From the NCBI GenBank assembly GCA_009192285.1, contig CM018604.1, positions 5,613,746 to 5,677,745 on the forward strand: a stretch of 64,000 nt of DNA, in the 5' to 3' direction. Below the pieces are notes generated by a model. The model had not been told where the DNA came from. It ran no database searches and was given only the letters and a program-made list of their open reading frames with translations. Positions within the stretch are counted from its first letter, which is position 1; each line of letters begins with the position of its first letter. A program made the position numbers and the translations under genes. This document shows positions 888 to 56,122 of this stretch, in pieces. The stretch is from Morchella semilibera. Taxonomy: Eukaryota; Ascomycota; Pezizomycetes; Pezizales; Morchellaceae.

Positions 888-3800
888 TGTGGTGTTTTTT
901 CGTATAAAAATAATAATAATAATAGTAATGATGATAATGAATCCAGGGTGGCAGTGAAGGTTATAAAATCACGACTGCCCTCGGTTTATATAAAAGGCCA
1001 GATGTAAATGTATGTATAGTAGTGTGACAGGTCACTCTGTCCAGTCTGTGCAGCTATTGCATGGGAAGCTCTCTCCACACACAGGAGGACAGCTCTGATG
1101 TAGGTATGTACTATAGCTACATAGTACATGTACATGTACGTATAGTACTCTACATACATGTACTCTATAGTATGCGGCACGGACCGTAGTGCTGTCTCAT
1201 GTGAGCTGCAGGCAGTGGAGGAGAAAAAAAAGTACGAACACACACAGGTGATTGGCTGTATACGTGCAGAGTTGTGCTTCTCGCACCGAACTCCGGTGTT
1301 TTCACATATCTTGACATCATAATATCACTGGTCTCATCCCATCGACACTCACACTCACAACCGAGCACTCGGCACTCGGCACTCGGGATTAATACCTCCA
1401 ACTCTCGAGTCTCTCTCTCCTCAAGGCAAGTCTCTCGGACTCTCTCCTCCCGTGCGGTGTCTGAGACAATCCTCACGTGTGTGTAGGTAGGTACTCTATA
1501 CCGGTGCATGCGCATACCACATAAGTAGAGTTTGTGTCCCTAAGCGCGTGTCGGGAGCGAACCGGCGGGGTGGTGTAACCTTCTGTCTATATTTCCAGCG
1601 GGGAGTTCCCTTGCTATTTGACGGGCGTGTGTGTAAGAGCGTGGGGGCTGTACATATGTACTTTATCGCACATGCTTTACACGTAGAGCAACAGGGAGGG
1701 CCGTCCAGTTCAAAATAATACCATCTCTACCTCTCAGGTGTCGATTGGCCGGCGGGGGTCCTAAATGTAGCTCACGACAGGAGCGGGCGGCGGGCGGCGT
1801 TGCATGCTTCTTGGGGCGGGTTATATTATATTTATGTCGCGTGCGACGTTTCAACACAAGAAACAACTCCAAGTGTCGTTATATAATTATTCGTCGCTCC
1901 TAGTATCAGTAGTCAGTCTCCTCCCTCTCAACCCAGCCCTCTTCTTACTATAATTCCTGTACGTACTTCTTCCCCTATGCTCATATCACCACTCCTGCCA
2001 CTGTGCCCAAAGTTCTATTGCAACTAAGTGTACTGTGACAAGACGATTCGGCGGGCATAAAAACAGAATAAACAAAAAAAACAATGATAACCCAGAATTA
2101 ATAAGAGAACGAGAGCCTTCCAGCCTTACGGACACATCAACAGAAGTAATACTCTGTATAGTATCATACAGTTGCGCTGACAGACGTTAATGCTGCAGGG
2201 GCTGTATATAAGGAATATCGAAACCTACAGGTTGGGGGCTGCCAGTACGAGCGAACCTACGGGGAAGCTGGGCTGGGCAGGCGGTTCGATGTCTCTACAG
2301 CTAGTGTAGGTTGATTAGGACCGTGTCTTATGACAATCCCGGCAAGAGGGGCCATATATATACACTCCAGAAGCCGTATTATCTACTCTGTTTCTCATTT
2401 CGTAGTTGGAGTACTTGTCGTTGTCTTTTGAGGAGGCTATGCAAGCTTTGTTTTATCACTTTGGTGATTCCACAATCATACGGGGATGAACTCCCACACA
2501 AGGTAGAAAAAGTCCGTCGCCAATGCCTTTCTGCTGGATCTTTTATTGCGACATCTTGCCTGGAACGTTCTGCACTTGGAGTCTGAATAATTAGCTTCAT
2601 CTTGTTGTACACTCTGGCAATTACAGCTAGTCGGACGGAGGTAATAATATTGAAAATCAGTTCTGGCTAGGTGAGCTCGGGGCCGGTGTGGTGGTCTTTG
2701 TCGGCCGGGGTCGTTTTATTTTTTGGAACGAGAAACTTTTTAGCCCTATATACACAGCGGACCATAAAAAAGACCCTAAGGGAAGGCTTTTCAGTGATCA
2801 CTCATCTTTTTTATATACGGATCATAATCCACAGCTGCATGGATACTGCGCACAGTAAATTATAAAACTAAATCATCAACACTTTTAATTTTTCTGAGTA
2901 GCTGTATGTAACGTCTCCACTCTAGCGTACGTCAAGTATATAGATCTTGATATTCGTCGGTTCCAGTCGAGGGGGTTATGTTAGGATCTCAGTGTTAACG
3001 TTAACGTTCGACGCAGTATCTCAAGCTGTCAATGATCGATCCCGATATGCCAACGCCTTGGCAGCGTCTAGTAGGTCGCCGGAAAACACTGTGGATGGCT
3101 TTCTGGATTGCTATGTCGTGCTATTCTTCTAGGATATTGTATACATATAAGTTTCGTCTTTCTCATAATGCGATAATTATAAGACATACGTACGGGGAAT
3201 GTGGGGGTTACCTTTGTAACTGTGGCAACGGCGCTTGATATGTGTATATATAGCTGGCTGAACGCCTTTTTTACAGAACCAGTGCCGACCTTGGTAGCTT
3301 GAATACAAGTGCCAAGCAGGGTATCTACGACTTTTTTCTTTTTCTTTTTGTTTACTTCATAGGGTATCTACGACTAGCTACGTGTCTGGTATATATGATG
3401 CCACAGTACGTCTTCTCAATCACAATATCGGGCCTATCTGCACATGCAACCTTGAATATCCGCCTCACACCCTCTGCTCCACCCTCCCCGGGGGTTCAGA
3501 CAACAAAAACCAGGCACGGTAGAAGCCGAGTGATAGCTCATGATGCTGCATTGACCACCGATATGGGAGACGGGTGTTGTGGGGAGTTGATTCTGCGCTA
3601 TTGGGGGGAGGAATTAGTAACTGGAAGACTGGGAGCACCGAGAGCCCAGGAGGTGGGGGGCGTCTAGCTGGTGCTGTAAACATCGACACACAGGTTAAGT
3701 GCGTAGGTAGGTGGGGAGGTCGTGGCCACAATTATATTGCTAGAACAGAAAATCATTCATGTCTTTTTCATTTCCTTATATGTACCTATTTATGTATATG

Positions 3801-4178: not shown

Positions 4179-5936
4179 CTAAATAAACTTGGCTCCAGCT
4201 TTCGAAAGTATTTCCTTAATGGAGGAAACTAATCCAACAGAATAAATCCCCCTAGGTTGATAGTGGTTGGGTTCTGTGTTCACTTCGGCCCCCGCAAGCA
4301 GAAGTCTGTCGGTAATACGTAGGTTACAATCGAATGCAGCACTAAAAAGTGGGGTCTCTCCCTCAAAATTTTTGGTGTTAACTTCGGCGCCCGCCTGCAG
4401 AAGTTTGTTGACAAGAGACAGATAACCACGGCGCACAGCCCTACTAAGTGGAGTGTCTCCCTTATCATCTTTTGCATCAACTTCGGCGCCCGCCTGTAGA
4501 AGTCTGTCGATAATAGGTAGATTATATTGTGCAGCCATAATAAGTGGGGTCTCCGCACTATTATTTCTGGCATTAACGTCTGCACCCGCTTGTAGAAGTC
4601 TGTTGACAATATCTAGATCATCAAGGCCCGCAGCCTTATAAAGAGGAGTCTCTCCATCCTTATCTTTAGCGTTAACTTCGGCGCCCGCCTGCAGAAGTCT
4701 GTCGACAAGAGGTAGGCAACCATTGTGCGCAGCCTGAATAAGTGGAGTTTCTGCTCTATTATTTTTTGCATTAACGTCGGCGCCCGCCTGTAGAAGTTTA
4801 TCGACAAAAGGCAGATCGTTTTTGCCCGCAGCCTTAAAAAGTGAGGTCTCCCCCTTATTATTTTTCGCATCAACGTTGGCGCCCGCCTGTAGAAGTCTAT
4901 CGACAAAAGGTAGATCACGACCGCGCGCGGCCTTAAAAAATGACGTCTCTTCCTGATTATCTTTAGCATTAACTTCAGCACCCGCCTGCAGAAGCCTGTT
5001 AACAACGGACAGATTTTTATTTGATACAGCCTTGATAAGTGGCGTGTATCCTTCGGGATCCTTTGCTTCAATTTCAGCGCCCGCCTCTAGAAGGGTGCTG
5101 ATAAGAGGTAAATGACCATCATGGGTGGCCATAATAAGCGGTGTGTCTCCATAGAAACTCTTTGACTCAATTTCAGCGCCCGCCTCGAGAAGTCTCCTGA
5201 CAATAGGCAGTTTGTTGTAGCGTGTGGCGAAGGTAAGAGCTGTTTCTCCGGTGTAATATTGCTTTGCATCAACTGCGGCCCCCGCCTCCAGTAGGCTGTG
5301 CACTATAGGCAGGTGCCCCTGAATCGTGGCGCACAAAAGTGGTATATCTTCTGATCCAGTGCTACGGACTAACTTATTCAAAATGCCCATCTCCAGAAAT
5401 GCGTTGACGATATTGAGATGGCCCTGAGATATTGATTGTAGAAATGCCAATTGGCGCATTAAGCCCCAATCGCCGCCGCTCACCTGGTCTAGTTCTAATA
5501 ACCAGAGTCTTATAAGAGGTACATGACCTCCACTAACGGCGCCAGATATACTACTCCACATGTCCTTCTCATTTAAGGTCACTAATATCCCTTTAAATTC
5601 CAAGACTAGGATTAAGATATCGTATTGGTGGGCACTCAGCGCCCAAAGGAAAATGGACTTAGTTTCAAGTTCAGGATTGGGATGCTTTGAAAGGGTTTGT
5701 CCTATACTCCGAGCTAACTGACGAGCTCGAGGCGGGAAGCTTTGTTTAGAAGAGCAATTTTTGATCTCATCTTGCCCATCTGGCATCTCCTCGGGCATGC
5801 TTTCAATGACAGGTCGATACCCGAACTTTACGGCGAAGAGTGCAGAAAAAGCTATCACTTCATCCATGTTCCTATCACATAGGGGGCACCGCCAGACATA
5901 GTCGCTCAAGGCTTCTATGATAACATGTAGAGTCAT
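4179..5936 (-). CDS. Ankyrin-repeat protein
   Basis: Single-exon gene of 585 residues. From about residue 190 to 553 it carries eleven consecutive 33-residue ankyrin repeats with the consensus GETPLxxAA..LPxVDRLLQAGAEVNAK; repeat 9 is one residue short. Ankyrin arrays are protein-binding scaffolds; the partner is unknown. The first 190 residues have no clear domain: there is one CPLC pair near residues 18-21, too little for a RING finger, then helical sequence that may hold degenerate ankyrin-like units. Repeats 4-9 are unusually similar to each other also at DNA level, so the array probably grows and shrinks by recombination. The start at 5936 is the first ATG of the open frame. The same-strand gene upstream (6520-7996) encodes a fungal N-terminal domain often found on NLR-like proteins, but an in-frame stop and about 580 bases without an open frame separate them, so they are treated as two genes. 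Confidence 0.85.
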   Translation of the reverse strand: MTLHVIIEALSDYVWRCPLCDRNMDEVIAFSALFAVKFGYRPVIESMPEEMPDGQDEIKNCSSKQSFPPRARQLARSIGQTLSKHPNPELETKSIFLWALSAHQYDILILVLEFKGILVTLNEKDMWSSISGAVSGGHVPLIRLWLLELDQVSGGDWGLMRQLAFLQSISQGHLNIVNAFLEMGILNKLVRSTGSEDIPLLCATIQGHLPIVHSLLEAGAAVDAKQYYTGETALTFATRYNKLPIVRRLLEAGAEIESKSFYGDTPLIMATHDGHLPLISTLLEAGAEIEAKDPEGYTPLIKAVSNKNLSVVNRLLQAGAEVNAKDNQEETSFFKAARGRDLPFVDRLLQAGANVDAKNNKGETSLFKAAGKNDLPFVDKLLQAGADVNAKNNRAETPLIQAAHNGCLPLVDRLLQAGAEVNAKDKDGETPLYKAAGLDDLDIVNRLLQAGADVNARNNSAETPLIMAAQYNLPIIDRLLQAGAEVDAKDDKGDTPLSRAVRRGYLSLVNKLLQAGAEVNTKNFEGETPLFSAAFDCNLRITDRLLLAGAEVNTEPNHYQPRGIYSVGLVSSIKEILSKAGAKFI

Positions 5937-6519
5937 TGCATCTAGTCTTTCGATCAGTCTATGAATCGAGTACTAGCTTAGAGTATTCGGGTGGATGAAT
6001 TAAACGCAAGTGCCAAAAAGATTAGGGAAGGTATCTGCTTCCTTACCATGTGGGGTCGAGAGATAGATTTCCTGATTACTGACGAAAAACACACTGTCTT
6101 CAACTTTGATATGCATATCATCGGCCACTGTACCCAGTATTTATTAGTTACTTGCCCTTTGGCGGGTTAATCAGTTGATAGATTGGATTACAACCAGGAA
6201 GTGAACATCGAGCAACCCAGTTCTGATCCGTTAACAGAATTCTTCCACGTCTCTCCTTCTTATGTAATAATAAGAGGATAACGCAGGGGACTGTCGCTCC
6301 ATGTTGGCTCGCCCGGTATTGCGCAAATCTAACGGCAAACGCGATTAGGGGTCAATATATGTAAGTTCTCAGTCTAGGATTGAAAGGAGATCAACAATGG
6401 TAGCATTTGTGACAGGACCCTAAAGGGATCCCTAATGGCCATTGATACGACAGCTTTTTACCATGCGCGGCAAGAGAGATGAAAAAGGCATTCATAGCCT
6501 CAAGAAAAAGATCGTGTAC
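5937..6519. other. Intergenic region between the two minus-strand genes
   Basis: No open frame of significance is seen here on the minus strand. It presumably holds the 3' end of the 6520-7996 gene and the promoter of the ankyrin gene. Nothing else is recognised. Confidence 0.5.
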
Positions 6520-9457: not shown

Positions 9458-12400
9458 ATGGATCCACCACTCAAGCCGATTCCAGCTGGTCTGGAAAGAG
9501 TTCGTTCCCGTGGTTACCAGATGGAGATGCTGGACGAGAGCTTGAAGAGGAACATCATCGTTGCGGTGCGACTCAACCCTTATTTTTGCACTGATGGTAG
9601 GCTAATCTGACTTGGGCGGTGGGTAGATGGATACCGGCTCAGGAAAGACCCATATGTATGTTTAACCCGTTCATATATGCTCCTGAGGGGTGCTTATGGA
9701 AGCTTCCTAGTGGGCTGTCGCGCTCACCCGATTTACTGATGCTTGGCTGTTTACATTAGTGCTATACTTAGAATTCGCTCCTACCTTGAATCTGGTGAAG
9801 GTAAGGTATGGGTAACTCTGAACACATTTCTATCGACATCGCTTATATTGCGGTAATAGTTATGCTGGCTCCTTGTCCCGAGCGTGCCGTTGGGAAATCA
9901 GCAATTCGATGTTATTAGGTCGTCCTTGCCGCCCATGAACATTCAATTTCTGAGCGGAAGCGATAATGTGGATAAATGGAAAACGCAAGAGATATGGAAT
10001 AGGATTTTGAAACTACAAGAGAATGTATCGACGATCGTAGTTAGTACACACCAGGTGAGTACTCTTGGCTCGGAATATGAGTTGTGGGAATGGGACACCT
10101 AAGGTGACACTGGTGGGATACTAGATCTTGTTAGATGCCTTAACGCATGGATTCGTGGGTATCGACAGGATAGGCTTATTGATATTTGACGAAGGTTCGT
10201 CCCCGGGCAGTGGTGATTTTTGAGGACAGGGTGATCGACATAGAAAGCTCGGGAATAGCGATCAGATAAAGTCTAATACTGATATATACTGGTATGCTGT
10301 AGCGCACCATTGCGTCGGAAATCACCCGGCCAACCGCATCATGCAAGATTTCTACCATCCCAATCTTCACCGTCAGGTTCCTTCAATTCTGGGGCTTACA
10401 GCAAGCCCAATCGTCAAGTCAAACCCAAGGCAGCTTCAGTAAGTCATTCCGCATCTACTTTGTTCTTCTTCTAATATCTGCGAGTATAGGGTCATCGAGT
10501 CAAACTTGAATGCTATATCAAGAACACCAATTTTGAATCGGGATGAGTTAATGGAGCATGTCCATACACCAGTCATGAAGAGTGTCATGTATAAACCCGG
10601 ACTATCGATTAACCAGGTGGTCAACTCAAAGTTTCAGAGTGATGCCGGGTCTTTGGAACTAGGAGGGAAGAGAGAGAGGAGTCCCGGGTATAAAGACCTT
10701 GGGGAGCCCCCTGCAGCCAGATTAAAGGTGGCAGAGAATCAATATGTTTTCAGGTAGGGAGCATCTACTTGGCCTACTTATGTATTGCCTTTCGTTCTTG
10801 TTACCTGATTTCCAAGTATCCTCGACTACTAGAGTTGTCGTTGGCCCCTCTACCCTTTGTGTTTTGTTTCCACGCTTCCTACAATCACATCTATTTCCCA
10901 ATCGATTATAAGGGACTTCACCATTCATTAGCGCAGGTGATACGGGGGGCGCCCTGAAAAATCTGAGCTATTTCCAGGACGCCCTTTACTTTGAAATATA
11001 TTAAGCATTGACTGTGCTAAATACATGAATAATAGCGAAAGCACCCCTGAGACCTCCGAATGGAGTACACCAGCGCTCCGAAGCCTATTACAAGCCTACA
11101 ATTCCATGGATATCATGGAAGACCCCCGTGTTATCACTCTCCTCGCTACACAGCCGCCAGACCTGGAGAAAATAAGAACGACAATCGAACACAAGAAAAC
11201 TCGTTCATTCCACCAAATGCATGGGATAGTTAAAAAGGCTGAGCATATCCTCGTGGAATATGGAATTTGGGGGACGGAGTGGTACGTGTGTATGATTGTG
11301 AACAGGGCTTTAGAGTCTATGGAGGACGACTCTGAGTCAGCAGTACTGGCGGGATGGGATGAGGATGAGAAAATATATTTTTGTAATGTGTTGAGGAAGG
11401 TGACGGTGACGGCGGGGCATAGGGACATAAGATTGGGGATCACAGATAAAGTGAAACGGCTGATTGAGCTATTGGTTGTAGAATTTAACGGAAAGGGCGG
11501 GGGGAGTGAGTTTGCAGGGTTAGTATTTGTGGAGCAGAGGGTGGGGGTCTCCGTTTTGGCGGAGATCATGAGGGGGCACCCAGATACAAGGAACATATTT
11601 GATGTTGGCACGCTAGTTGGGGCAGCTGATAATTCTGCTAAAACAGGAAGACTTGTGTTTGAACTCACTACATTGAAGGAGCAAAAAGGCACAATTGAGG
11701 GCTTTAGGCAAAAGACTAAGAATATGGTCATCTCCACCAGTGTGGTCGAGGAAGGTTTGGACATACCGTCATGCCACTTGGTGGTCTGTTTCTCGCTGCC
11801 AAAGAATGTCAAGAGTTTTATTCAGCGGCGCGGAAGGGCACGACGGGAGAAAAGCACATATTATCTCATGTTTGAAGAAGGGACAGATGCAAGAGTGAAG
11901 ATCACAAGGCTGGAGCAACTTGAGCAAGAGATGATCCGGGAGTACATGGATGTTACCAGGGAGCTTGAAAAGAGATTGGAAATCGAAGAGGGCGATCCTG
12001 ATGAAGATGGAGTGATAAGTGAGGCGGAAAACAGGAAGTTTCCAGTCAAGAGTACTGGGTAGGGTTTTGTCATCTACCATCGGGTTAACATTATGCTAAC
12101 TCCTGTTTAGCGCCCTCTTGACGCTTGGGTCTGCGCTGACACACTTGCATCATTTCTGCAATACCCTACCATACACAGAGTTTACGGACCTCCGCCCGAT
12201 CTTTAACACAGAAACCCTCTACCCTGATGGTGGGCTTTTCAGAGCGGACAAAAAGCATTACCGAGCGGAAGTTGTTCTACCAAACTCCGTCCCGCAAAGC
12301 GTCCGCCGCGCAGCGAGCAAAAGATCATGGGAAACAAAGAGTTTGGCTCGACGTGACGCGGCATTTGAAGCTTATCTCGCCTTGTATAAATTGGAGGATC

Positions 12401-14769
12401 CTCTTATCAATGATCACTTACTACCGCTGGCCCCTGCTGGTCAGGATACGATGGTCAGGCCAGATATCAGGCCTCCAACTGTTCCTGTAGCGAGGAATAT
12501 TGATCCATGGGCGGATACAAACTGGGCTGAGACTTCAGTAATATACAATACCCCGATCACACTCACCATGCCGAACAGGGGCCAGGTTGAGATCAGCATA
12601 TTGACAACCATAAAGTGTCCCACAATTGAGAAATTTCCGATCTTCTGGACGGGGTCTGAGAGTGGAGAAGTTGCGGTGGGTCGATCATTCTCTCTTTCCG
12701 CTCTTTCCGTCGAGCAGGACTTTGTGGAAACGGCAAAGAAGATGACATATGAACTGCTGCACTCGGTGCATGCAGCAAAAATGGAAATCAATGTAATGGA
12801 CTTTCCGTACCTTTTCTCTGAAAGAAATGGAATCCCGTTGTGGGAGGATGGGGGTGCAAGTAAAAGCAGTGTGTACGAGGCGTACAAGAGTAATCTCCCT
12901 GTCCAAAGCATGGGTATCATACGGGAGACCGGTCAGGAGCATTCTCGGTATATATTCCTTAGGTGGAGGACCGATATATCTCCGCTGGAGGACGCGCAAA
13001 TTCTCGAAAAGTATAAAGGCAGGCCAATCGATCCAGACCAGCCAGTTATCGAGGTACAAAGACTATCCCATCGTCGCGATTTTCTACACCAAGCACTCCA
13101 TGAGGTGACCCCAGAATCACTTCACCTTCTTCCCCAGTACTGCACAGTCGATAAGATTCCGTGGCGATATTCTCAGTTTGCACTTTTCGCCCCAGGTATT
13201 ATCCACCGGATCAGTATAACCTTGCTGGCCTCAGACATCCAGAACACTCTACTTTCAAGTGTGGGATTCACCTCAGTCAATAATATTCTCACCGCACTCT
13301 GTACCTCCTCCTCGAGAGAGTTACATGACTACCAGCGGCTGGAATTTCTCGGAGACTCGGTATTGAAGCTGCTCGTTTCCCTTAATTTGCTTGACGAGCA
13401 CCCATCATGGCATGAAGGAGTCCTCTCCATGAGGAAGGCAAAGATAATTTCCAACTCCACCCTGGCAAAAGCAGCACAGGAAAAAGGATTAGCACGATGG
13501 ATCATTTCGGAGGGCTTCACGGGGGCAAAATGGAGTCCACGATACACCAACTCATCGGATGATAACTGTAATAATAGTAAGCCGAATAGTTCCTCTTCCG
13601 AGAAAGTTCTATCGACCAAGGTACTGGCAGATGTAGTCGAGGCACTCATTGGCGCAGCGTATGTTGAAGGGAGCTACGATAAGGCCATGAAATGTATTAA
13701 TGCATTTGGCCTGGATGTGGTTTTGAAGCCCATTAAAGTAAGAGCAGCCTCCTTATTTAACAAAGCGGGAAAGGCTCCACCAGTCAAAATCGCATATCTA
13801 CAGGGCTTGCAAAATCTGCTCAGGTATAAGTTTAAACACCAATCACTCCTTCTTGAAGCAATAACGCACCCCTCCTCCGAGCTATCCTCGCCATCCTATC
13901 AACGTCTCGAGTTCCTGGGTGATGCGGTACTAGACATGCTCGTAGTCGACGAGCTTTTCCAGAACCCGAAGAACCTCCCACCAGCCTCAATGCATCTCTA
14001 CAAGAGCTCAGTCGTCAACGGGGGTATCCTAGCATTTTTGTCAATGACTTGCTCCACCGAGGAAGAAATCCCCACCGTCGAGGAGTCCCATGGGCTCTTC
14101 AACGTCAAAAACGTGGGACAGCAAGCCTGCATCTGGGACTACGTCCAACTCTCCCATCCCGAGATGATCAAAGCACGAAAGCGTTTCCTCGCACAATACG
14201 AACGCTCCCGACTACAGATCCTCGAAATGCTCACACATGATGGGCGCTACCCCTGGGCCGAGATCGCGCTGCTCGAGGCTGACATCAATGGCAAATGCAA
14301 GCTGTTTGCAGACATGTTTGAGGCCATCGTCGGCGCTGTGTATGTCGACTCCGGCGGCGACTTTACGGTTGTCAGAGCGTTGGTAGAACGATTCGACATC
14401 TTCCGAGTGCTAAAGATATTCCTGGAGAGGGGGACAGACGTGATGCATCCATTCAACAAGGTGAGCGAGATGGCGGCGAGGCTGGGGAAGGGTGCGGTCG
14501 AGTATGACTGTGAGATGGAGGACGAGGTGTATGTGTATACGACTTCAATAAGGGGGATAAAGGTGGCGACAGCACAGTCGGCAAATGAGATGCAGGCAAA
14601 GGTGATGGCTGCTGAGAGGTCGCTGGAGATGCTGGAGCGCGCGGAAAGGTACACAAAGGAACCAACCCAAAAGGAGCCGGAGCCGGAGGTTGAGAGCCCT
14701 AGGGAGGATCTAATGGATGTGGACGATATGATGCCGGAAATCACGCCTCGAAAGGATCTATTTGGTTGA
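9458..14769 (+). CDS. dcl2: Dicer-like protein (DCL2 type), nine exons
   Basis: RNA-silencing endoribonuclease that cuts double-stranded RNA into small RNAs. Exons: 9458-9565, 9627-9655, 9760-9805, 9860-10054, 10125-10194, 10303-10438, 10490-10753, 11036-12058, 12111-14769; about 1509 residues. Order of domains: DExH helicase with Walker A MDTGSGKT split across introns and motif II DEAHHC; helicase C-terminal part with [16 protein letters not shown] and QRRGRARR; Dicer dimerisation domain after [14 protein letters not shown]; a weakly defined PAZ-like middle; RNase IIIa with [16 protein letters not shown] and [16 protein letters not shown]; RNase IIIb with [16 protein letters not shown] and [16 protein letters not shown]; a short C-terminal double-stranded-RNA-binding-like tail. 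Catalytic acidic residues of both RNase III domains are present. All joins keep phase; the intron at 10754-11035 and the low-complexity end of exon 7 are the least certain. DCL2 rather than DCL1 is a judgement from the N-terminus and size. Confidence 0.92.
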
Positions 14770-34967: not shown

Positions 34968-37234
34968 ATGAGCGGTTACTCGCCCCCGCCCCTCGTGCGC
35001 TTCACGAAGGTGCCACGCGCCGACTCGTCCGAAAGGGAACGCTCCTACTCGCCCGACTACTGGGGCCCGAGAGACGTCTCGGAGAAGCTGATGCTTGAGA
35101 AGCAGCTGCCGCTCAAGCCGATGCCCATAACGCGAGGGCCCCGGCGCAGCAAGACAGCGTGGATACGGCGGCCGATAATAATCATACTCATCATAACCGG
35201 GCTCATTGGGATCTGCGCTGGTTTCATAATCTCGAAGAGTGAGAAGGGGAAGGCGATCGGTGAGTGAGATGCTCTGCTATTCCTGAGAGAGAAAAAGACG
35301 ATGCTGATGTGCAGTAGAGACCGGCATCATCGTCAACGTCCAGAACGGCGTTGTGTCCTCTGAGATCGATGTGTGCTCCCAGGTTGGCGTCGGTATCCTG
35401 AAGATGGGCGGGAATGCTGTCGACGCAGTCATTGGTACTGTTTCCCCCCCTCCCCTCCCCTCCCCTCCCCTCCCCCCCCCCCCGCGCTATCAGGAGTAGA
35501 GAAAACACCCGGCAGTACTGCTGGCACTGGCAATAGTAGCTAATATAGGAAGCACCCCCTCGTAGCCACGGATATCTGCGTTGGCGCTATCAACTCCTGG
35601 GCTACCGGCATCGGCGGCGGCGGCTTCCTCGTCGCCCGCACAGTCCACGGCGATTCAAAGACCTTCAACTTCCGCGAGATGGCACCGGGTGCAGCCTCTC
35701 GTGACATGTACGGTAACGACACGGAAAAATCGCAGGTTGGCGGGCTCTCCGTCGCGATCCCGGGCGAGATACATGGCTTCGCCACGGCGCACGCCATGCT
35801 CGGAAAGCTGGCGTGGCATGAGCTGTGGGTGCCGACTATCGAGCTGTGCCGCGGGGGCTTTGTTGTCACCGATAGGCTCGCTCTCATGATTTGGATATCT
35901 AGAGATTTCTTCAGGGAGAATAGGGACACCTGGGGCTTCATGTTCTCGGAGGAGACGGGGGAGCTTCTCACCGCCGGGCAGATTATGAGGAGGCCGGCCT
36001 TTGCGGATACTTTGGAGATCATCGCGGCACCCGAAGAGGCCGGCGAGGGCGGCGATACGTACAAAGGCGTGCGCGAGTTCTACAACGGGACCATTGCGAC
36101 GAGGCTGGCGAATTTTGTGCAGGAGAACGGCGGGATCATGACAGAGGAGGACTTTTCAAAATTCTTCACCGTCGTGGAGGAGCCCTTAAAGACTACGATT
36201 GACGATCTACAGATCATCACCTGTCCGTCGCCCTCCAGGTATATGCCCTCTTCTTCATAATAGGATATATAGAGGATTATGGGACTAACTCCTCGACACA
36301 GTGGACCGGCGCTGATTACGGGCCTCAATATCGCTGAGGGTCTCAACATGCGAGACCCCAAACAACCGGTCTCCCACCACTATCTAGTGGAGTAAGTGCA
36401 TATTCGCCCCTTCGCCCCCCCACGGCCAACCCACTAACACCCCCCCCCGCCAGGTCCATGAAATGGCTCTCCGCTGCCCGCACCGAGCTCGGCGACCCCG
36501 CTGACCCCGTCGTCGCCAACAACTCCCAGCGCATCCACGAAATTACCACCAAGGAGTGGGCCGCCGCTGTGCGCGCAAATATCTCCAGCTCACGCACTTA
36601 CTCCTGGGAGCACTACAGGCCCGCCTACGAGCCTACGGAGCCCAAGGGCACCGCGCACACGTCTGTCTATGACCGCCGCGGCGGCGCCGCGGCCCTGACC
36701 TCGACCGTCAACATGGACTGGGGCTCGAGGCTGCACGACCCCGAAACCGGCATCATACTCAACAACGAGATGGACGACTTCTCGATCCCCGGTCGCCCCA
36801 ACGCCTACGGGCTCCAGCCCAGCATCTTCAACTACATCATACCGTACAAGCGCCCGCTATCGTCCAGCGCGCCGACCATCGTCATCGAGGGCGATGGCGG
36901 TGTCGGGCTTGTTGTGGGCGGCAGCGGTGGCAGTAAGATCATCACGGCCGTGTTTGAGGCCGTGGTGAGGACGTACTTTTGGGGATGGGGCCTACTCGAC
37001 ACGGTTAAGAACCCGAGGCTGCACCATCAGTTAATCCCCCAGAATCTCAGCGCCGAGCACGATACGGAGCCTTGGGTGGTGAAGGCGCTGGAGGATAGGG
37101 GGCATCAGGTGGTGGTGGTGGTTGATACGCCGGAGACGCTCAGGAGTGTGGTGCAGGCGGTGCGCGGGGTGGGGGCTAGGGTCGAGGGCGTGGCGGATTA
37201 TTGGCGGAAGGGGGGGATGGCGGCGGGGTATTAG
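34968..37234 (+). CDS. Gamma-glutamyltransferase (glutathione hydrolase), membrane-anchored
   Basis: Ntn-hydrolase that removes or transfers the gamma-glutamyl group of glutathione, usually in the vacuole in fungi. Five exons: 34968-35259, 35315-35434, 35566-36238, 36302-36391 and 36454-37234; phases agree and the protein has about 651 residues. A cytosolic N-terminal tail of about 68 residues is followed by one transmembrane helix (IIIILIITGLIGICAGFII), giving a type II topology. Family signatures follow: SSEIDVCSQVGVGILKMGGN, GIGGGGFL, and the self-cleavage site GTAHTSVYD, in which the Thr after Gly is the expected catalytic nucleophile at the start of the small subunit. The following signature deviates slightly from the usual pattern (GGAAA instead of G-[SN]-x-V), and the Thr-x-Thr of LTSTVN is kept. 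The intron at 35435-35565 contains a long C-rich tract. Confidence 0.9.
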
Positions 37235-45706: not shown

Positions 45707-46666
45707 TCAACAATTGCCATACAGGTTCTTCCCCGTCTCCGGTCTCAAGAAGTACATTACATAAGTCCTCTTCTGCGGGGCTGGCTGCGTAAACCTATGT
45801 AAGCATGAATGCAACCTCCCGCCCGACAGCTTTTGCAGCGAATTTCCAACATTGACCAAGGTGTACCCCTCCTTTGGCTGTATAAACGCCCACTTGTCAG
45901 TCCCTGGGAATTGGAGTTCCGTGGCCCATTGCTTGCCGAACAGGATTGTCAGCGTGCCTCCATCGGTGTGCCTGTTCTCCTCAATGTCTGAGGACTCTAC
46001 GAGTGGCTCGTAGACTAGCTTCAGGCATGTGGCGCTGGGTTGGTTGTCGCGGTGGCTCTCCCCGAAAGGGATACCGAGCTCGCCGGAGAGGGTGGACAGC
46101 ATAATTTGTGAGAGGTGGTGGGAGACGGTGATGAAGTGCTTGATGACCTGGGTGTCGTCCTTGAGAATTGCGGGGAGAACCGAATCTCCCTGAACAACTT
46201 CGTCACGTGTAATCTGAGAATGTTAGCGCAAGCAACCTCAAGAGGCGGTCAGAAATTGGGGCGGGGGGTGGGTGGGAGGGGGATATTACCTCCAAGGTGC
46301 TTTCAAACCCACCAGGTTTGTATCTATCGCATGTCAGTACATGTACTTTTTGGGATTAGTGAGCGTGGGGGATGCTTACCCACGCTCCTCCGATTCCCGA
46401 TAATCCTTCATTTTGACATCGTGAGGCTGCTCAAAGTATTTATCGATGATGGGATACATGGCTTCCACGCAGGCGAGGTATGTCTCGGTGGACTTGCCCC
46501 TAAGGTCTACGTAGAAGAAGCCCGGTGATCGGGCGGCCTTGCAGAGCTTTTCGGCCTCGGCGGGCTCCTTTGAGGCGAGGCGGGCAAAGTCAATCACCTC
46601 GAGGGTGGCAACGTCGACCTGGGTGCCATTGACTGTGGCGGTGGAGGAGGATGTATTGTGAGGCAT
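45707..46666 (-). CDS. 2-oxoglutarate/Fe(II)-dependent oxygenase, IPNS-like, paralog 1
   Basis: Non-haem iron oxygenase of the isopenicillin-N-synthase-like superfamily, which hydroxylates, desaturates or cyclises small molecules using 2-oxoglutarate and oxygen. Three exons on the minus strand: 46666-46380, a micro-exon 46323-46290 (34 bases), and 46213-45707; 275 residues. The N-terminal DIOX_N-like part has VIDFARLA and SPGFFYVD. The iron ligands are expected to be the His and Asp of HTDGG and the distal His of SCLHR, followed by an Arg-containing stretch for 2-oxoglutarate. The product ends FLRPETGKNLYGNC. It is the inverted paralog of 55159-56122: the same number of residues, the same exon phases and a matching 3' flank. 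The substrate is unknown. It diverges from, and shares an upstream region with, the synthetase-like gene at 48053. Confidence 0.9.
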
Positions 46667-48052
46667 AATAGCATCGGGTGTAATGTGTATGCACAGTCAA
46701 ACGCAGAAGGTTAAATCAGCGCTTTTAGTAATTATAGATACAGGTTGGGGGTTGGGGAGTGCACTGTAGTATTTGAGATAACGTGGTTCCAGAGTATATA
46801 GATGTATGCTATAGCAAGGCACAGAAGTAACGTTTCAAACCTGTATAGAAGCAGTAGGTACATGTTAGTTTTATCTTCTGTATATAAGTGATAGTAACTT
46901 AGTGTTCTCGATATTACATCACGAGAATATGATTTTCACATCCATCCATGTAGTTGTCAGTCAGTCAAACCGGTTAGAGCATCCAGCCAGGCTTCTCACC
47001 ACTGCCATTGGGTTGGGTCGAGCAGACCGCTATCCTCTCACCTCGATCTCCACCGACGAGTGTATATGCAGAATTTTTCACTGAATGTTTGATTGTTGGG
47101 TGTCACTTCAGCTCATATACAATCATGCAATGATGTCGATCAGCATATCATGATCAGGATAGTACTCTACGAGTGTGTGTTCCTGTGTCACCGCGCGGAG
47201 GGTCAGTGCTTATGCAGGATAGAGCAGATCAAGGCTGAGTACTAGAGTACTTTCGGACTTCGACTGGTACTGGGGAGGGGGAGGGGGGGGGGGTGGGGGT
47301 GGGGGTGGGGTGGAATCGAGTACTGTCGTTCACTGCCGGTGATGATGGATTCTGGGCAACACCCAATGTCCATCAATAGTAGACTCAATACCCACTGAGC
47401 GACAGTAATAACAACCAACCAAATAAGGAGACAGGAATTATTTGAAGCGAGTACCGCCATTACTCGAAAATTGGCTATGCATACATATACGACCTCATTG
47501 TGAAGGAGGTAATCCCTGGCCGGAGATAGCCAGCTTTTGTGGTACATTACCTCATTGCACGAGGATGTAGGGTACAGCTCAATCAATGCAGGTTCCGCCA
47601 GATGCAGAGAACTCAGAGATCTGCCGGGTGCGGGGATTAATGTCTAAAGTGGGCTCTGGTTGGCCGCCTACTCTATACCCCTGCTGTCTCGCAATAAGAT
47701 AATTCGGTACCAGTGTTTGTAAAAGGAACCGCAATTGCACCATACTAAATTCTGGACTTGGCGCTTCAGTATGAAATTCCTTTTTCAACAAGCGTCAGGG
47801 TTTTACGAGTATGCCATTACATCGCGTTACACCTCGCTACGTATACTCTTGTAGGGGTAGAGTAGAGAATATGATATGTCCACTCTACAAGACTCACATG
47901 CGAGTATATATAGATGCGTATCAATCTGTTGAGATGGGCATCGGATATCTCTCTCTCTCTCTCTCTATCTATCATTTTATCTCTTCCTGTCGTCTAGACA
48001 TTCCTACTACCTCCTTCACTGCTGATACACTCAACACACAGCTCCCCCACAG
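46667..48052. other. Intergenic region between divergent genes, with repeat R3
   Basis: Bidirectional upstream region of the oxygenase (46666, minus) and the synthetase-like gene (48053, plus). It contains a G-rich block near 47275-47310, the second copy of repeat R3 (47451-47546), and a CT run (47951-47968) followed by CTATCTATC just upstream of the synthetase-like gene. A 70-codon minus-strand frame at 47791-47579 has no known family. Confidence 0.55.
47451..47546. repeat. Dispersed repeat family R3, copy 2
   Basis: Contains CCGCCATTACTCGAAAATTG, GCTATGCATA and GGTAATCCCTGGCCGGAGAT, matching 43558-43665 in the same orientation with small indels. Confidence 0.75.
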
Positions 48053-49500
48053 ATGTCCAACACCCTGAGCCCCGAGCAGAAGTTTGAGCTCATCACCCGG
48101 GGGCTGGAAGAGGTCCAAGATGGGGACTTAATCAAGGCCCTCTTGGACACCGGCAAAGACCTCAGGGGCCTCTGGTGTATGTCCATCCACTCTCCCCCGT
48201 CGCCCCGGGCATATAGAAAGTGGTATTCGTCTAATACAACCTCTTGAACAGCAACGGCACCTACAGGAAGACGTGAGTCCCACAGATAGAATCTTTGCCT
48301 TGGGTCACTCTGAGAGATGGTGCAGCACACTTAGGATACCTCATCCCGATGATAAAGATGGCCGAGTTTGCACGCGCGGGTGTACAGGTCTGTATGCTCT
48401 CCCTGAAGAAACCCATTTGGAACTGCGCTGATGTTTCCGGATAGGTCATCTTCAATATTGCGGGTAAGCCCACTCCCCCCGGGCGAGCGCTACTGCTGCC
48501 ATGAGTGAAATGCACTAAGATTTTTGCCCGTAGATATCTGGACATTTCTCGTAAAATACGTACATACCTTCGAACTTATATCCCATCGCGGAGAGATCTA
48601 CAAATTCGTCCTGGGCGCAGTATTGGAGTCGATTGGCGCCCCACTTTCAAAGATAACCTTCGTCAAGGAATCTGACCATCACCTGACGAGGGAGAATATT
48701 TTCATCAACCTTAGGATGTGGGCGCTCTCAACCCAGGGTCATGTCCAGGACACCGGAGATGATATTAAGTACACCCCAATGCTTAGCCCCATGCTCTGTC
48801 CCCCCATGGAAGTGCTTAACAAGGAGATCCACGACGTGGACTTCGAGTTTGGCGGTGTGGACCAGGTAGATGGCGCCCTCCCGTGTTCCCCCCGCTGCCG
48901 CGCTCTGGCTGACCCCCCTTGAAGCGTGGACTCTTTACCTTCGCCGATAACTATCTTCCCAAGCTCGGGTACAGGAAACGGGCGCATCTGATCAACGAGA
49001 TGCTCCCCGGACTTAACGGCGGCAAGATGTCGGCCTCCATCCCAAACTCCAAGATTGATTGCCTCGACACCCCGGAAACGATTGAGAGGAAGATCAAAAA
49101 CATTCCCTTCGAGGAGGGCGATATCGCCTGGAACGCTATCCTGGCTCTCGCCAGGCTGATCGTGATGCCTATCAGCAAACTCCGCCTTGAGATGATCCAG
49201 GATGCGGGTGGGGCACAGAATATGGCTGGTAAACTCCCGTTTAGCGGCGTAGGCGCGCCGGAAGGCACCCTGCTCACCATAGGGGCGGGCACAAAGGACG
49301 GGGGCCTCAGACATTACAAGTCATACGATGAGGTGGAGCGTGATTACGTAGAGGGGAAACTAGACCCCGAGGAACTAAAGCTTGCTATCACGGAGGCCAT
49401 CAAGCAACTGCTAGCCCCGGTTCGCAAGGCGTACGAATCGAACGAGGAGTGGCAGGCGGTGGAGAAGCTGGCCTTCCCCAACCCGGAGAGGCAGGAGTGA
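48053..49500 (+). CDS. Divergent cytosolic-type tyrosyl-tRNA-synthetase-like protein
   Basis: Class I aminoacyl-tRNA-synthetase fold of the eukaryotic TyrRS type. Six exons: 48053-48176, 48252-48272 (21 bases), 48326-48387, 48445-48463 (19 bases), 48534-48865 and 48925-49500; 377 residues if translation stops at the TGA 49498-49500. The N-terminus (SPEQKFELITRGLEEVQ), the HIGH-like site TAPTGRPHLGY, FGGVDQ, LGYRKRAHL and KMSAS (usually KMSSS) are clear. Compared from memory with ordinary cytosolic TyrRS, tyrosine-pocket residues look replaced: the Tyr before W-G-T is Leu (GLWST), the Tyr of the YTLDVYRL helix is Leu (NIFINLRM), and YPxxQALDE is changed to CPPMEVLNKE. It may therefore bind another amino acid or not charge tRNA. 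The last exon can also be spliced at 49496 into the downstream GNAT exon. It is flanked by two paralogous oxygenases. Confidence 0.85.
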
Positions 49501-49561
49501 GTTGGCCCGCCATACCTACGCAGGATTCATGAGCTGAACTGACATCCCCCCTCCCGTAAAG

Positions 49562-50431
49562 CACCCCTATAGCCCCTATTCAGGTCAACTTCTGCTACCC
49601 CGTCTGCGACCTCTCTAACGATCTGGTCAAACTAACCCCCTACAACGTGAGTCCTACTACCCCCAATTTAGCACTCCCCCCACTAATCATTGCCTTCTAC
49701 AGCCTGCCCGCCACGCTCGCTCCTACTTCACCCACACGTCCGGATCCTCCCACCCCGAGGTCTTCTATGCCCACAAGCCCCTGGGCCCCTTCTCCTCCGC
49801 CGCCGACTTCACCGTTAACTTCTTCGACCCCATATTCCACCCCGACCCTACAATGGTGTTCTACGCAGTGATTGACAAAACCCGCCCTTCCACTGAGGAC
49901 AACGACGGCGCGCTCGCTGGCATTATCGCATACGTTAACACCTCAACCGCTAACCAGTCCGCCGAGATCGGTTACCTAGTCGTCTTCCCTGCCTTTCAGC
50001 GGACACATGTCACCTCCAACGCTGTCGGGCTGCTGCTGCAGTACGCCCTGGACCCGCCTGCCAAGGGGGGCCTGGGGCTACAGAGGGTGCAGTGGCAGAC
50101 GTCCAGTGCGAACGAGATCTCTATGCGCTCGGCGGAGAACATGGGATTTAGGAAGGAGGGGGTGTTGAGGTGGGATAGGGCGTATTCTAGCGGGGGAAGC
50201 AAGAGGAAACAGGGAAATATGAAGCAAATTCCGAACGGAGATGGGAAGCAGATTGCGAACGGAGATGGGAAGCAGATTGCAAACGGAGATGGGAAGCAGA
50301 TTGCGAACGGGGGTGGGGGGGATCTAGGGAGGGACACGGTGGTGTATAGTATCTGCTGGGACGATTGGGAGGAGGGAGGGAGGGAGAAGATGGTGGAGAT
50401 TATGGAGAGCCGTAAGGATGTTTCGGATTAG
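49562..50431 (+). CDS. GNAT-family acetyltransferase lacking its own ATG; likely C-terminal part of a fusion
   Basis: GNAT N-acetyltransferase of the RimJ/RimL-like type, acting with acetyl-CoA on an unknown amine. Exons 49562-49646 and 49703-50431. Family features: VNFCYPV and LVKLTPYN at the start, HPEVFYAHKPLGPF, AGIIAYVNTSTANQSAEIGY (acetyl-CoA-binding strand region), and SMRSAENMGFRKEGVLRWDRAY. The first exon is preceded by an in-frame TAA (49558-49560) and has no ATG; where a start would be expected there is ATA (49569-49571, I-A-P-I). A 65-base intron 49497-49561, with donor GTGAGT overlapping the TGA stop of the synthetase-like gene and branch CTGAC, would join both in frame (residue 377 becomes Asp) to make a protein of 647 residues. 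The acceptor AAAG is weak. A four-unit 24-base repeat encodes KQIANGDG units near the C-terminus. Confidence 0.75.
50221..50316. repeat. Coding minisatellite, 4 x 24 bases, in the GNAT gene
   Basis: The unit GAAGCAGATTGCGAACGGAG plus ATGG is repeated four times with one to three changes per unit. It keeps frame and encodes K-Q-I-A-N-G-D-G repeats in an insert before the last strand of the GNAT domain. Confidence 0.95.
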
Positions 50432-55158: not shown

Positions 55159-56122
55159 ATGCCTCATAGTACCTCCACCGCTACGGTCAACGGCACCAAG
55201 GTCGACACTGCTAACCTCGAGGTCATCGACTTTGTCCGCCTGGCCGCAAAGGAGCCCGACGAGATCGAAAAGCTCTACAGGGCCGCTCAATCACCCGGCT
55301 TCTTTTACCTCGACCTCTCGGGCGAGAAGGAATTCATCTCCAAGGTGAAAACCATGTATTCGGTCGGCGACATATACTTTGGCCAGCCTCTCGAGGTCAA
55401 AATGAAGGATCTCCGGGAAACAGAGGAGCGTGGGTAAGCATCTCCGCTCACGAACCAATCTCCCCTCCGCACCAAGCACGTGCAGCGTACTCACAATACG
55501 ACAGGTTTAAAAAACCTACCAAATACGATGGCGAATTCGATGTAACACCCCCCAATCTCCCACCACTAGTTCATGTTAGGATAGCTTGCACTAACAGCTT
55601 CCCCAGTTTATGCGCGACGACGTGGTCAACGATAATCTGGTTCTCCCCGCCGTCCTCAAAGACCACACCGAGTTCGTCAAGCAGTTCATAACCTTCTCCC
55701 ACCACATCTCAACCACCATACTATCCAGCCTCTCCAACAAGCTCGATATCCCCTTCGAAGAGAGCCACCGTGCCGACCAACCCAGCTCCACAATCCTCAA
55801 ACTGTGCGACGAGCCACTCAGGGAGACCCTCTCAGAGGTTGAGGAGAACAAGCACACCGATGGCGGCTCACTGACAACCATGTTCTGCGAGCAGTGGGGC
55901 ACGCAAATCCGGCTCCCAGACACGGGGAATTGGGCGTTTGTGGAGCCAAAGGATGGGTGCGCGGTGATCAATATTGCGAATTCATTGCAGAAACTATCGG
56001 GCGGGAAGTTGTATTCGTGCTTGCACAGGGTTACGCAGCCGACGGATGGCGCGCAGAAAAGGCCGTTTATATGGTACTTTTTGAGACCGGAGACGGCGAC
56101 GAACCTGTATGGTAATTCTTGA
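55159..56122 (+). CDS. 2-oxoglutarate/Fe(II)-dependent oxygenase, IPNS-like, paralog 2
   Basis: Same family as 45707-46666, about two thirds identical by eye. Three exons: 55159-55433, a micro-exon 55505-55541 (37 bases; one codon longer than in paralog 1), and 55607-56122; 275 residues. Iron ligands are HTDGG and the distal His in SCLHR; the C-terminus FLRPETATNLYGNS matches its sister. Intron phases are identical between the two. The first 110 bases after the stop also match the sister gene (TGAGACCGGAGAA, then GTGTATCTCAAGAGATA), so the duplicated block includes 3' flank. A CT/CA-rich leader and a TATA-like box precede the ATG. The substrate is unknown; acidic and polar differences between the copies (for example the segment after FFYLDL) suggest they may not be redundant. 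Confidence 0.9.

Follow-up and report, generated by a model that had tools for sequence, protein, structure and literature searches.

In the genome of Morchella semilibera, a gene encoding a synthetase-like protein related to tyrosyl-tRNA synthetases (TyrRS) has probably become fused to a downstream gene encoding a GNAT protein, the two being bridged by an intron captured from the 5' leader of the GNAT gene, whose start codon has decayed. In the stretch of 64,000 nucleotides that was analysed (the window), the joined frame is open, the intron lies at a place corresponding to that of an apparent leader intron in a standalone relative, the GNAT part lacks an ATG, and the synthetase part retains its ATP-binding motifs while its amino-acid pocket is changed. 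We hypothesize that a diverged paralog of the cytosolic TyrRS landed directly upstream of a GNAT gene of the Acetyltransf_3 type, which would already have possessed an intron in its 5' leader. The junction would have set the synthetase frame before the donor of this leader intron, and splicing would then join both coding regions into a protein of 647 residues, upon which the ATG of the GNAT, needless after the fusion, would have decayed to ATA. The joined gene is probably expressed as one protein.

Gene model and splice signals

The genome comprises 56.8 megabases in 23 contigs. In the spliced model, the synthetase-like gene has six exons encoding 377 residues up to a TGA codon, and the introns within the fusion gene measure 53-75 bases (Table 1). 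Joining position 49496 to 49562, and removing a further intron of 56 bases within the GNAT part, yields a frame of 647 residues in which Pfam (three families matched to E 0.001) places tRNA-synt_1b before Acetyltransf_3.

Table 1. Features of the synthetase-GNAT gene (window positions)
Feature	Position	Strand	Basis
TyrRS-like part	48053..49496	+	spliced model; PDB 2dlc E 2e-74; Pfam tRNA-synt_1b 100.6 bits
Exons of the TyrRS-like part	48053-48176, 48252-48272, 48326-48387, 48445-48463, 48534-48865, 48925-49496	+	spliced model
Intron 5 of the synthetase part, GAAG (AAG) acceptor	48866..48924	+	required by the conserved join of VDQ to R
Fusion intron, phase 2, GTGAGT...CTGAC...AAAG (predicted)	49497..49561	+	signals, joined frame, likeness to C21 leader
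TGA ending the 377-residue protein on intron retention	49498..49500	+	translation
GNAT exon 1, in frame with the synthetase	49562..49646	+	homology search and spliced model
ATA replacing the ATG start codon of the C21 relative	49569..49571	+	alignment with C21
GNAT intron, 56 bases, position matching the 56-base intron of C21	49647..49702	+	spliced model and comparison
GNAT exon 2 including stop TAG 50429-50431	49703..50431	+	open frame; Acetyltransf_3 34.9 bits (cut-off 25.4)

The strong donor GTGAGT (49497-49502) includes the TGA at 49498-49500, and the intron contains a CTGAC at 49539-49543, an in-frame TAA at 49557-49559 and the AG at 49560-49561. All of these elements had been described in the earlier note and are present: splicing to 49562 would remove 65 bases, skip the TAA and lead into a GNAT frame with ATA in place of ATG. 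Likewise, translation reproduces the two products proposed there, of 647 residues upon splicing and 377 upon retention of the intron. The presence of TGA within the donor is not remarkable in itself and was ruled out as such; it follows from phase 2 and GTGA, since the G completes a codon and TGA is then invariably read next. A match of frames alone would be expected for roughly one join in three and does not go beyond chance.

Two other acceptors, ATAG (ending at 49572) and TCAG (ending at 49583), have a better consensus than AAAG and lie 11 and 22 bases downstream of it; both break the frame and would yield out-of-frame products 391 and 393 residues long, the latter in agreement with the frame shift predicted in the earlier note for its TTCAG acceptor. 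For this reason, a join to 49573 or 49584 is held less likely than one to 49562. The GAAG acceptor of intron 5 in the same gene is fixed by the conserved join of VDQ to R, which suggests that this gene uses AAG-type acceptors, even if these are rare, with one case among the 11 introns inspected other than the fusion intron (five of the synthetase part, three of the TyrRS gene on contig C1, the second GNAT intron of the window and two of the C21 gene). The concern that AAAG is a weak acceptor is hence eased by intron 5, and by the conserved 7-base spacing described below, but not removed.

A standalone relative and the origin of the intron

A genome search detected one further GNAT of this type, located on contig C21 and displaying 67% identity over the main exon. 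This gene stands alone, with its own ATG and with a 56-base intron at a position matching that of the window GNAT. Upstream, a stretch GTGAGTT...CCCAG, identified as an apparent 5'-leader intron by its splice signals only, ends 7 bases before the ATG. In the window the AAAG acceptor likewise lies 7 bases before the ATA, which aligns with the ATG of C21, and the donor GTGAGTT is common to the fusion intron and the C21 leader intron. The region upstream of the C21 GNAT (locus L002, about 2850-3250) also carries an array of short repeats of the CGCCTAGGACACGCCCAAAT type.

In a first comparison, the intron region and the C21 leader region aligned with a score of 48.7, as high as none of 2000 shuffles. 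The compared intron stretches had been picked after inspection of the sequences, and repeats with other stretches and with real-intron controls were weaker than this first result: scores as high were obtained in 1/2000 shuffles of the window sequence and 2/2000 of the C21 sequence for the same region, in 1/2000 and 1/2000, respectively, for the introns alone, in 9/2000 and 15/2000 for the intron plus 7 bases, and in 0/2000 and 0/2000 for a wider stretch. When real introns were aligned with the leader intron of C21, the five from the synthetase part gave scores of 13.3-16.6, compared with 33.5 for the fusion intron. The second GNAT intron of the window, although not the counterpart, nonetheless reached 28.5, and the C-rich make-up consequently accounts for part of the likeness. 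The resemblance between the fusion intron and the C21 leader intron thus appears moderate, and position and spacing constitute firmer evidence on the origin than intron likeness. Taken together, the fusion intron and the 5'-leader intron of the C21 gene are probably related. In the simplest reading of this comparison, the leader intron is the older element and the synthetase was set in front of it later; events may also have run the other way, the C21 copy having lost the synthetase of an old fusion. A contig scan of the genome with the GNAT pair returned 14 pattern matches, none of which was confirmed.

Apparent conservation of the GNAT part and alternative explanations

In the alignment with C21, the GNAT frame of the window opens without an ATG. 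The encoded GNAT scores 34.9 bits against Acetyltransf_3, above the gathering cut-off of 25.4, and is predicted from this match to be an acetyl transferase; the C21 copy scores higher (46.9 bits). Between the two copies, dN is 0.24 and dS 0.79 over 170 core codons, with a pairwise dN/dS of 0.30 (bootstrap 0.19-0.46) which does not separate the branches, and over all 238 aligned codons dN/dS is 0.29. Relative-rate counts, which are small, assign derived residues to the window and C21 copies in ratios of 7:9 and 6:7 when the solved acetyltransferases 3pzj and 3tcv, respectively, serve as outgroup, and drift since the duplication would give an excess of derived residues in the window copy. The window GNAT accordingly looks to be under conservation in this comparison, with room for doubt on account of the small counts and of a possible, very recent decay of this copy. 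A structure prediction for the second GNAT exon gave a pLDDT of 33.6. In the C-terminal part of the GNAT (about 50220-50310) there is an in-frame 24-base tandem repeat with GDGKQIAN units, and a stretch of 24 residues in this repeat region is missing from the C21 copy.

The earlier note had raised the prospect of a start-less pseudogene, and a recent pseudogene lying behind an independent synthetase paralog of 377 residues, with the in-frame join owed to luck, would agree with the change of ATG to ATA, with a prior for such a join of about one third, with the out-of-frame position of the better-consensus acceptors and with a Pfam score under that of the C21 copy. The ATG is indeed absent, but the GNAT frame is open over 270 codons, a dN/dS of 0.29-0.30 and the lack of an excess of derived changes (7:9, 6:7) favour a conserved GNAT, and only 61 bases separate the TGA from the first base of the GNAT exon, leaving scant room for a terminator and a promoter; we consider this explanation unlikely. 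A scan for bacterial-type promoters and terminators, a model not suited to eukaryotes, found none.

Production of the GNAT alone, with ATA or ATT serving as a non-AUG start or with the start supplied by an upstream mini-exon that escaped recognition, would be in line with the standalone C21 relative, which has its own ATG and leader intron. Yet ATA and ATT are poor start codons, and between 49000 and 49545 the single donor matching the patterns used is that at 49497. Five ATGs located in 48900-49545 can be linked to the GNAT frame by a matching donor, and since all five are methionine codons of the synthetase frame, with no ATG outside that frame doing so, a GNAT started at AUG is most likely a fusion. 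A separate start is therefore very improbable. Even less credible is a switch by regulated retention of the 65-base intron, which would toggle between a synthetase-like protein of 377 residues and the fusion of 647. The frame left open upon retention fits such a switch, but the TGA, being inherent to any phase-2 intron that starts with GTGA, is no sign of one, and the intron is accounted for as a remnant of the former leader of the GNAT gene; the control of the fusion by its intron, as put forward in the earlier note, finds no support. A fusion bridged by the captured leader intron remains our preferred reading.

The synthetase part, its surroundings and known systems

Among solved structures, the best match of the synthetase part is 2dlc, a cytoplasmic TyrRS (E 2e-74) which we take to be from yeast, and the class I fold motifs PHLGY (HIGH-type) and KMSAS (KMSKS-type) are kept. 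The protein falls below both NCBIfam cut-offs for tyrosine--tRNA ligases, with 160.3 bits for PRK08560 (cut-off 220) and 52.0 for TIGR00234 (cut-off 113.8). A second TyrRS gene, located on contig C1 and encoding a basic tail, exceeds both (284.7 and 211.6 bits) and is presumed from its sequence to be the housekeeping enzyme. The two proteins have 142 of 352 aligned residues in common, and relative to the C1 TyrRS the window synthetase holds about 23 extra residues (approximately 272-294, within 48925-49496). A review lists 13 residues of human TyrRS that contact resveratrol, a tyrosine mimic (PMC6207623). At these listed positions the window protein is changed in 10 of 13 and the C1 protein in none; the ten include Y39L, H77W, Y166C, Q170E and D173N as well as two mild replacements, V152I and I191L. 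Where the human and C1 residues agree, 10/13 pocket positions and 67/149 other positions are changed in the window (Fisher p = 0.04), a modest enrichment at the pocket. Tyrosine charging has likely been lost, judging from these replacements, and a new substrate is our guess. The comparison with the standalone C21 GNAT supports the TyrRS-GNAT fusion proposed in the earlier note, but with most of the amino-acid pocket altered, TyrRS is too strong as a functional name.

Two genes for 2-oxoglutarate/iron oxygenases flank the fusion gene, one at 45710-46696 (-), transcribed away from it, and the other at about 55595-56119 (+); they look like paralogs of each other, and it is possible that they form a small pathway with the fusion gene. 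RimL-type GNAT enzymes acetylate aminoacyl-adenylate analogues. It is conceivable, if doubtful, that the synthetase activates a compound other than L-tyrosine and that the GNAT acylates the activated compound or a tRNA ester, outside translation. More speculative is a dedicated bifunctional enzyme: the synthetase, its pocket no longer suited to tyrosine, would activate a different acid, amino or aryl, and the GNAT would acylate the product or a tRNA ester, perhaps in a pathway with the flanking oxygenases. Elsewhere in the window, an open frame of 889 residues at 12100-14766 (+) contains a Dicer dimerisation domain and ribonuclease III domains, two large open frames at 35544-37231 (+) match gamma-glutamyltranspeptidase, and an open frame of 597 residues at 4182-5972 (-) has many ankyrin repeats.

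If the proposed fusion is real, this locus would represent a legible case of two genes merging, in which the downstream gene contributed a leader intron that bridged the two by splicing, followed by decay of its start codon. The fungal fusions of class II aaRS and transferase would moreover gain a class I counterpart of synthetase-GNAT architecture, and the changed pocket would raise the biochemical question of which substrate is activated. Fusions of an aaRS with a second enzyme are already known in fungi (PMC4301749, PMC9437257, PMC2922099). A TyrRS-GNAT fusion was not found in a search of open-licence papers, a scope that makes its absence weak evidence. In Cryptococcus, CNBA1270 is a fusion of TyrRS with SAICAR synthetase whose synthetase part is called prototypical in the cited text (PMC4301749). 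As in the present case, a fungal TyrRS carries an unrelated enzyme domain toward its C-terminal end; in contrast to that protein as described there, the Morchella fusion has another partner domain and a changed tyrosine pocket, and contig C1 carries a further TyrRS gene. In bacterial peptide clusters, MetRS paralogs are found beside GNAT genes (PMC2922099), and a class I aaRS paralog thus occurs together with a GNAT in both instances, but there as MetRS encoded by a neighbouring gene and here as the TyrRS-like part of one predicted protein. ErdS, a fungal AspRS fused to a DUF2156 / MprF-like transferase (PMC9437257, PMC2922099), shares with the window protein, on the description given in these sources, an N-terminal aaRS and a C-terminal domain of GNAT fold in a fungus. 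The DUF2156 / MprF-like domain is absent from the three Pfam families matched in the window protein to E 0.001, and whereas ErdS combines a class II AspRS with an aminoacyl-tRNA transferase, the Morchella gene would combine a class I TyrRS-like protein with a GNAT of the Acetyltransf_3 type.
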